A stretch of DNA of 64,000 bases from Oscillatoria sp. FACHB-1407 (GTDB taxonomy: Bacteria > Cyanobacteriota > Cyanobacteriia > Elainellales > Elainellaceae): positions 62,001 through 126,000 of the forward strand of contig NZ_JACJSA010000015.1 of NCBI RefSeq assembly GCF_014697545.1. The letters run 5' to 3'. Below the pieces are notes generated by a model. It was not told the origin of the DNA, ran no database searches, and saw nothing but the letters and a program-made list of their open reading frames with translations. Position 1 is the first letter of the stretch, and every line of letters starts with the position of its first letter. This document shows positions 3,808 through 63,326 of the stretch, in pieces. The translations under genes and the position numbers were made by a program.

Positions 3808-3907
3808 ATACCAATTTGAATTGGCTTCGCTGCACAGGATTCTGTAAGGGCGTTTCGCGAAACGCCCCTACCCAGTGATCTACCACAATCAAACATTAAA
3901 TCGGTAT
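3808..3907. repeat. MITE-like 100-bp repeat, family R4
   Basis: Begins ATACCAATTTGAATTGG and ends AAATCGGTAT, so the termini form an imperfect inverted repeat. The centre holds the palindrome GGGCGTTTCGCGAAACGCCC. A 100-bp copy in opposite orientation lies at 63227-63326 and a decayed centre at 52925-52952. Its right end abuts element R2 at 3907. Confidence 0.85.
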
Positions 3908-50837: not shown

Positions 50838-50853
50838 GAGGATTAATGCAATT

Positions 50854-50891
50854 TTTGTGGAGGGGTTGACATGGCTAAACCCCTCCACAAA
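50854..50891. repeat. Perfect 14-bp hairpin, family R7
   Basis: TTTGTGGAGGGGTT (50854-50867) pairs exactly with AACCCCTCCACAAA (50878-50891) around a 10-nt loop. A decayed copy is near 63090-63122. It could act as a terminator for the ATP-grasp gene, but there is no following T-tract. Confidence 0.75.
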
Positions 50892-50902
50892 GTCGCTCAT
50901 GT

Positions 50903-50995
50903 TATAGCAACCCTAAATGATTTGTGAAAGTGCCCGCCCGTCGGGCGGGCACTTTCACAAATCACCTTTTTCACAAATCAGATAGGACTGCTATA
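50903..50995. repeat. MITE-like 93-bp repeat, family R2 (second copy)
   Basis: Identical in length and almost in sequence to 3907-3999; ends TATAGCAACC and GGACTGCTATA. The inner hairpin has loop GTC instead of GAT, flanked by GTGCCCGCCC and GGGCGGGCAC. The change of loop while the arms stay paired fits either recent copying or maintained structure. Confidence 0.92.
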
Positions 50996-51114: not shown

Positions 51115-52803
<1,689 letters not shown>

Positions 52804-52978
52804 TCATTGTGGCATAAGGACTCGCTACCGCCATCAAACAATTCTGTTTTCTTCGTCGTTTGTTGTTTTGTGCGTAAATTCCACTTAGGAGATTTCTGAG
52901 AAAAAATCTACCAATCGGTTTCCGGTAGGAGCGTTTCGCGAAACGCCCTTACAGATATTTTGGTTTCTGGAAATCTCC

Positions 52979-53071
52979 TTAAAGCAAGCAGATGAGTAGG
53001 ACGAAGCCAAGGATGCCAAGAGCAGATTCGGCAAATAGGGCAAATTCAGAGCAAGAGTTGCTGCGTTCCAT
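52979..53071 (-). CDS. Unannotated 30-residue membrane peptide
   Basis: Reading the minus strand from ATG 53071 gives MERSNSCSEFALFAESALGI then LGFVLLICLL and stop TAA at 52979. It has an almost ideal Shine-Dalgarno, AGGAGG, with six bases (TGTCCT) before ATG. The C-terminal half, ALGILGFVLLICLL, is hydrophobic enough for one membrane helix, and the N-terminal part is polar and acidic with one cysteine. I do not recognise it among known photosystem, cytochrome b6f or NDH small subunits. It lies between tpiA and pyrG on the same strand. Being so short it would be missed by ordinary gene calling; a chance frame is the alternative, but the ribosome site argues against that. Confidence 0.6.
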   Translation of the reverse strand: MERSNSCSEFALFAESALGILGFVLLICLL

Positions 53072-53192
53072 AGGACACCTCCTGGGGCTTATGGGTCTAT
53101 CATCCAAAACTTTTCAGGGTTTAGGGGTGATACCCAGCGCAAAACCAGGTGATGTTAGCACCCTGTTGAAGTGATGGAGTAACCACAAAACA

Positions 53193-53206
53193 GTGATTTA
53201 CGTCAC
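53193..53206. promoter_or_regulatory. CRP-family-like binding palindrome
   Basis: GTGATTTACGTCAC (53193-53206) matches the dyad GTGA-N6-TCAC of CRP-type regulators (cAMP-CRP, SYCRP1 in cyanobacteria). It is about 128 bp upstream of the 30-residue peptide gene on the minus strand. A truncated R5 element (53216-53243) follows it, before the tpiA stop. The functional assignment is inferred. Confidence 0.4.
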
Positions 53207-53244: not shown

Positions 53245-53970
53245 TTATTGATAGTTAACAATGCGGGCAAAACCCTCCGGCGAGAGGCTAGCTCCACCAA
53301 CTAAAGCTCCATTAATTTCGGGTTGAGCCATAATCTCATCAATATTTTCTGGTTTGACAGAGCCACCATATTGGATCGGCACCTCTGGGTTGCTCAATTG
53401 GCTGCGAATCAACCCAATAATTCGGTTGGCTTCTTTTGCTTCACAGGTATCTCCAGTGCCGATCGCCCAAATCGGTTCATAAGCGATGACCAGGTTACTC
53501 TGATCAATATCCACCAAGTCCTGCTTCAGTTGCAGAGTAATCAGGGATTCCGTTTCACCTGCACCGCGCTGTTCTTTGGTTTCGCCCACACAGAGGATGG
53601 GGATTAACCCATGTTTTTGTGCCGCTTTGAGCCGGAGGTTGACGGTCTGGTCGGTTTCACCAAAATATTGCCTACGTTCACTATGCCCAATGACGACATA
53701 TCGCACTCCAACCTCAACTAACATCGGTGCTGAGATCTCGCCTGTATAGGCTCCTGAGTCTTCCCAGTGGACATTTTGGGCACCGATCTTGACCCGACTG
53801 CCGTGCAGATTCTTAGACAAGACGCCCAACGCTGTAAAGGGAACACATAATACAATCTCCCGGTCGTCAGGGGTGTCGTTCAGGTGTCCCAAAAATCCTT
53901 GTAGAAACTCAAGCGTCTCTGCTTGAGTTTTAAACATTTTCCAGTTACCAGCGATGACAGTTTTGCTCAC
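53245..53970 (-). CDS. tpiA: Triosephosphate isomerase
   Basis: 241 residues. [13 protein letters not shown] starts the barrel with the substrate-binding Asn-Lys; [11 protein letters not shown] carries the electrophilic His; [14 protein letters not shown] holds the catalytic Glu; and ALVGGASL is the C-terminal phosphate-binding loop. It interconverts dihydroxyacetone phosphate and glyceraldehyde-3-phosphate in glycolysis and the Calvin cycle. It begins at ATG 53970. The stop codon is only 2 bp from the R5 fragment, so insertion has nearly reached the gene. Confidence 0.98.
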
Positions 53971-63226: not shown

Positions 63227-63326
63227 ATACCGATTTAATGTTTGATTGTGGTAGATCATGGGGTAGGGGCGTTTCGCGAAACGCCCTTACGGAATCATGT
63301 GCAGTGAAGCCAATTCAAATTGGTAT
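63227..63326. repeat. MITE-like repeat, family R4 (inverted copy)
   Basis: ATACCGATTTAATG to CAATTCAAATTGGTAT, 100 bp, reverse complement of 3808-3907, with central GGGGCGTTTCGCGAAACGCC. Lies 20 bp before the gpV-like gene, so the promoter of that gene must be in or beyond the repeat. Confidence 0.9.

Follow-up and report, generated by a model that had tools for sequence, protein, structure and literature searches.

The window, by which is meant the whole 64,000-nucleotide stretch of Oscillatoria sp. FACHB-1407 DNA analysed here, holds a gene for a 30-residue peptide between tpiA (53245-53970, minus strand) and pyrG (ATG at 52761, minus strand), preceded by a phased array of CRP-type boxes. 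The features of the locus (window positions), each with its basis in parentheses, are as follows.

52979-53071, minus strand: coding sequence of the 30-aa peptide MERSNSCSEFALFAESALGILGFVLLICLL, with ATG at 53071 and TAA at 52979 (homologues, pN/pS, one helix)
53078-53083, minus strand: AGGAGG ribosome-binding site, 6 nt 5' of the ATG (sequence; alone not above chance)
53099-53104, minus strand: inferred -10 element GATGAT, 26 nt past the last TCAC (shared, at an equal distance, by four other family members)
53127-53206, minus strand: 22-nt-phased CRP-type array GTGA-N6-TCAC-N18-TCAC-N18-TCAC-N18-TCAC (sequence, scans)
53193-53206, minus strand: outermost full dyad GTGACGTAAATCAC of the array (sequence; matches the consensus of 80 arrays)
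53171-53174, minus strand: TCAC half-box 2 (sequence)
53149-53152, minus strand: TCAC half-box 3 (sequence)
53127-53130, minus strand: TCAC half-box 4, at -38 to -35 of the inferred start site (sequence, inferred -10)
52908-52928, minus strand: candidate intrinsic terminator, a 7-pair stem followed by a T-run (pattern match only)

The complete frame described at 52979-53071 in the initial annotation exists and is conserved, but it lies on the minus strand; translation of the same interval on the plus strand is interrupted by stops. Its placement between tpiA and pyrG was borne out, and the AGGAGG with a 6-nt spacing was found as described. The ribosome site by itself is no evidence of a gene, because shuffled windows give equally many AGGAGG-ATG pairs (four occurrences of AGGAGG-N4 to 9-ATG in the 64-kb window vs 3.1 in shuffles); the frame was taken as real because it is conserved. 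The presence of pyrG within about 1.5 kb of tpiA was looked for in 29 relatives and found in none, and the gene order tpiA-peptide-pyrG is peculiar to the Oscillatoria sp. FACHB-1407 genome. Because of the candidate terminator downstream, a transcript of about 190 nt likely carries the peptide gene alone.

Two other elements were recorded nearby. Three copies of the palindromic repeat GGGCGTTTCGCGAAACGC lie in the window (3848-3867, 52929-52948 and 63267-63286; none expected in shuffles), the one at 52929-52948 just past the peptide gene; the repeat is likely a dispersed cyanobacterial palindrome. An Rfam scan of the region returned weak sub-threshold matches, none of them at the peptide gene; those downstream of pyrG (AbsR25 and others, 50849-50967) fall at an imperfect inverted repeat and are probably chance matches to a hairpin.

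The peptide and its family

The search of relatives at the protein level and the comparison of synonymous with nonsynonymous change, proposed in the initial annotation as checks, gave homologues and strong constraint, respectively. Close matches to the peptide were found at unrelated genomic places in a search of 40 relatives; in every case the C-terminus lies no more than a few residues from the helix, and for most a start and a ribosome site can plausibly be assigned. With a profile built from 32 members, and counting as confident those relatives with E below about 1e-4, the family was detected in about 55 of 390 genomes of the cyanobacterial class, belonging to six GTDB families, at up to four copies per genome and with tandem pairs in some (G003, G201). 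The Oscillatoria sp. FACHB-1407 genome has a second copy, and a DNA pattern for FWQSGxSVFGF was found in ten named carrier genomes, among them Phormidium tenue FACHB-1052, Leptolyngbya sp. FACHB-60 and Halomicronema sp. CCY15110. The members begin with a polar stretch of about 5-20 residues that varies among them, continue with F-x-(E/Q)-S and close with a helix that ends at, or immediately after, the last residue (a short tail follows it in a few); they share the core F-x-(E/Q)-S-x3-(I/V)-x-G-F-L-L-L-x3-L-L-end.

In 11 genomes of a single genus (Nodosilinea and relatives, by genome names), mean pS was 0.48 and mean pN 0.044, a ratio of 0.09; in this alignment the peptide varies almost only synonymously, at codon thirds, and the flanks diverge. 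For the window gene and its three nearest relatives, pS was 0.72-0.82 and pN 0.17-0.26 over a 21-residue core, with synonymous change near saturation. That the 30-residue frame codes for protein is well supported by these substitution patterns. A spurious frame, with an RNA, a leader or regulatory DNA as the conserved thing, would suit the chance-level ribosome site; it is very improbable and already contradicted by amino acids kept despite synonymous change, by diverged flanks and by the occurrence of the family at many unrelated loci.

Structure modelling gave one helix spanning residues 5-29 (mean pLDDT 86.6), and hydropathy reaches a maximum of 2.44 over 19 residues, a helix long enough to cross a membrane. 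The peptide ends in ...ICLL in the window and in ...ILLA in relatives, with no charged C-terminal tail. The product is predicted to be a one-helix membrane microprotein of about 3.3 kDa; the earlier description of an unannotated gene for such a peptide is supported by its conservation and its pattern of codon changes as well as by hydropathy and the structure model. The statement that it matches nothing known also held: no match was found in Pfam, NCBIfam or PHROGs, and a profile search of the PDB gave no related chain. As judged by these searches, the peptide belongs to a family that these protein libraries lack.

A general conserved neighbourhood of the family was not found. The neighbours form local groups only, namely malate dehydrogenase (Nodosilinea group), gas vesicle-like genes (a few genomes) and a Mo-nitro_C-like gene (one genus). 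A role as a small subunit of a membrane complex, raised in the initial annotation, is conjectural: since no solved structure contains a sequence relative and the neighbours vary between genomes, no partner protein is indicated.

Small proteins of Synechocystis such as Norf4, HliR1 and Norf1 (31-48 aa) were likewise missed by annotation, and Norf4 and HliR1 have one predicted helix (PMC5126843). The window peptide resembles Norf4 and HliR1 in its small size, its one predicted helix and in having been overlooked; the ends of the Synechocystis proteins derived from primers (MTADQLL...SFAKGG, MSNLIAVAF...), however, do not resemble the family. Norf4 is very conserved, whereas the family is variable outside its core. 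On this sequence comparison, Norf4, HliR1 and Norf1 are different proteins from the peptide family.

The promoter array of the peptide gene

The CRP-like dyad noted upstream in the initial annotation was recovered as GTGACGTAAATCAC and proved to be part of a larger element. No other exact GTGA-N6-TCAC occurs in the 64-kb window, and the exact four-box array, with TCAC at 22-nt steps, occurs once in the 8.1-Mb genome, at the peptide gene. The putative -10 element GATGAT is found at the same distance (+26) in L058, L063, L069 and L078. In class II CRP sites the downstream half lies at -38 to -35; half-box 4 fits this position if GATGAT is the -10 element, which would put the start near 53092. 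What lies there is a half-box rather than a full palindrome centred at -41.5, and the full palindrome is 66 nt further upstream.

Upstream regions of 39 family members were scanned for TCAC at a period of 22. Chains of at least two were found in 14 (0.17 in shuffles) and chains of at least three in seven (0.007 in shuffles). Among the periods from 8 to 44 tested, only 22 and its double, 44 (10 regions), stand out, the others giving 0 to 2. In 570 kb around the members, triple TCAC occurred 14 times at period 22 and 0 or 1 times at the other periods from 14 to 33. A graded array score was also used, with a threshold of 15 or more; it was reached by 10 of the 39 members vs 0 of 284 other genes at the same loci. 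The largest score among 2340 shuffles was 15.5, and the window member scores highest of the members. These counts are not independent, because family members are related; the positive members belong to three GTDB families and several genera. They include the window gene and all tested members of the closest N-terminal type, M(E/D/Q)R(S/H)SEF (L058, L063, L069, L078, and also L067 and L250). The array is no constant feature of the family: about 27 of the 39 members tested, the second copy in the Oscillatoria sp. FACHB-1407 genome included, have no detectable array. The CRP-type array is real and well supported.

A second TCAC array lies at L064 8467-8514 (minus strand) and in Nodosilinea-group relatives, between mdh and a gene with a cyclic-nucleotide-binding domain, near the peptide gene.

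Known small subunits of photosynthetic and respiratory membrane complexes are of similar size and have a similar helix, and the peptide might be such a subunit, made constitutively. The patchy presence and variable copy number of the family, the lack of a relative among solved structures and the regulated promoter of the window member argue against this reading and make it improbable.

Arrays across cyanobacteria

The exact four-box pattern was searched in 390 genomes and gave about 150 matches in 68 genomes, some of them plain tandem repeats, vs about 20 with the reversed control. A consensus was taken from 80 arrays without simple repeats, selected on TCAC alone. Despite this selection, their first unit reads GTGAt-N5-aTCAC (G69 T74 G74 A79 T55 percent); the inner units are single half-boxes, (A/G)TCAC, with no second half. 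A -10-like (C/G)ATAcT starts 26 nt past the last TCAC. Up to six phased units are present.

For 65 of the 80 arrays, a frame no more than 330 nt from the last box clusters with a frame behind another array, a few small clusters among these consisting of frames that overlap in the same genes. The largest clusters are a 72-aa family (ITLADRYGLMAAI; 22 arrays), a 68-aa family (11), an 82-90-aa family (6) and an exported 180-aa family (6); others are the HD-domain Npun_R2479 family (4) and Mo-nitro_C proteins (2). Apart from these last two, no curated family was found for the array-linked groups. For the most part, the arrays stand in front of small proteins whose function is unknown. In the Oscillatoria sp. 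FACHB-1407 genome itself, an array match with two mismatches precedes another small protein.

Individual loci were also noted. In L171-L250, several families of 60-110 aa (e.g. ITLADRYGLMAAI, IREIVQQAL, YWQKLVREGVP) that have no curated family stand behind TCAC arrays. The other exact dyad-plus-two-box match in the Oscillatoria sp. FACHB-1407 genome (G000:C30:23914-23971; L252) precedes a gene for a 102-aa membrane protein (MPLYAFLASLILAVPVYAVLYATSLF...). An aspartate aminotransferase-like gene (MSIKLAARVQQVTPSMTLAISAKAKAM) has an array 360-475 nt in front of it in three related genomes (L237, L238, L239).

This company of genes bears on a further reading, that of a hydrophobic peptide resembling type I toxins and restrained by an antisense RNA. 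Its short length and hydrophobicity, the patchy distribution, the several copies per genome and the tandems (G003, G201) are in keeping with a toxin. The helix is followed by no charged tail, however, a pattern scan gave no antisense promoter-like match over the gene, constraint is strong across families, and the dedicated activating promoter is common to many ordinary small proteins; a toxin is accordingly quite improbable.

The regulator

The Oscillatoria sp. FACHB-1407 genome encodes a CRP (G000:C2:125576-126274) whose recognition helix, ARETVTRVL, fits the pattern of E. coli CRP (RETVxR) and not that of NtcA (TRVTVTRLL). An orthologue of the SYCRP1 type was found in 290 of the 390 genomes (search at E 1e-40). 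A strong CRP match is present in 66 of the 68 array-bearing genomes (counted by eye), the two others being drafts of over 1000 contigs, and picocyanobacteria have neither a strong CRP match nor arrays. This co-occurrence is weak evidence, because most of the class has CRP and phylogeny confounds the association; the distribution supports CRP as the putative reader of the array, short of proof.

Two other candidates were rejected. The NtcA motif GTA-N8-TAC is present in four of the 39 upstream regions. The J-Box promoters of SigJ in Nostoc have the extended -10 GGGaAtacT (PMC6495340), whose -10-like aAtacT resembles the array consensus (C/G)ATAcT; the window sequence TGGATGAT, however, lacks the GGG, and no TCAC array has been described for the J-Box.

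The array might also be read by a protein other than CRP, i.e. another Crp/Fnr-type or a monomer-chain regulator, with a real peptide and a dyad that is merely CRP-like. Published cyanobacterial CRP sites are described as palindromes (PMC2633013), whereas the inner units here are single half-boxes with no second half and the position nearest the promoter is a half-box too; the genome also encodes ten or more further regulators of the Crp/Fnr type that score above the family cut-off. Set against this, both the dyad consensus and the site length of 22 bp agree with those of CRP, the last box occupies the class II half-site position, and an SYCRP1-type protein accompanies the arrays in nearly all genomes (66/68). 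A non-CRP reader is on balance unlikely.

Discussion

We consider the locus to be, with a probability of roughly 0.6, a free-standing gene for a one-helix membrane microprotein whose promoter of 22-bp-phased CRP boxes is activated by cAMP-CRP. The analysis establishes the coding status of the frame, its family, the helix prediction, the array with its recurrence across the phylum and the presence of a CRP; CRP binding, the start site, induction by cAMP, membrane insertion and a partner protein are what we infer. The cAMP receptor protein (SYCRP1 type), with cAMP bound, would occupy the outer full palindrome, and further CRP dimers would align on the weaker half-boxes along the same face of the DNA, 22 bp being two helical turns. 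The last dimer, at -35, would contact RNA polymerase in a class II-like manner. A rise in cAMP would in this way yield a short single-gene mRNA and then the peptide, which would insert as a single helix whose end lies at the membrane face and may act by helix-helix contact on a larger membrane protein, modulating this partner.

The arrangement can be compared with known CRP promoters. Cyanobacterial CRP sites have been described as palindromes, TGTGA-N6-TCACA, followed by a -10 box at a distance of about 22 bp, and predicted targets include hypothetical proteins (PMC2633013). The array resembles SYCRP1 and AnCrpA promoters in its GTGA-N6-TCAC, in a sigma70-like -10 shortly downstream of a CRP-type box and in its small hypothetical targets; it differs in that its palindrome lies far upstream, linked to the -35 by half-boxes at exact 22-nt steps. 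With E. coli class II promoters it shares a downstream half-site TCAC at -38 to -35 of the inferred start; unlike them, it has only a half-site there, and the units in phase can number as many as six. Half-box arrays phased at 22 nt were not found described in the open-access papers searched, and their novelty is provisional.

It is conceivable, at slightly less than even odds, that many cyanobacteria use a common code, in which CRP nucleates on the palindrome and extends as a chain of 22-bp-phased dimers to the -35, switching on a regulon, mostly of small and unstudied proteins, that includes the peptide family.

The promoter array is a larger finding than the peptide gene. An overlooked 93-bp frame becomes a defined family with a testable switch, and a strictly spaced promoter element in dozens of cyanobacterial genomes points to a regulon composed of small proteins whose function is unknown. 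To our knowledge, few direct targets of cyanobacterial cAMP signalling are known; the spacing rule, which can be searched in any genome, would yield many, and with the array it would become possible to test directly whether a CRP family protein binds cooperatively, in the manner of a chain.
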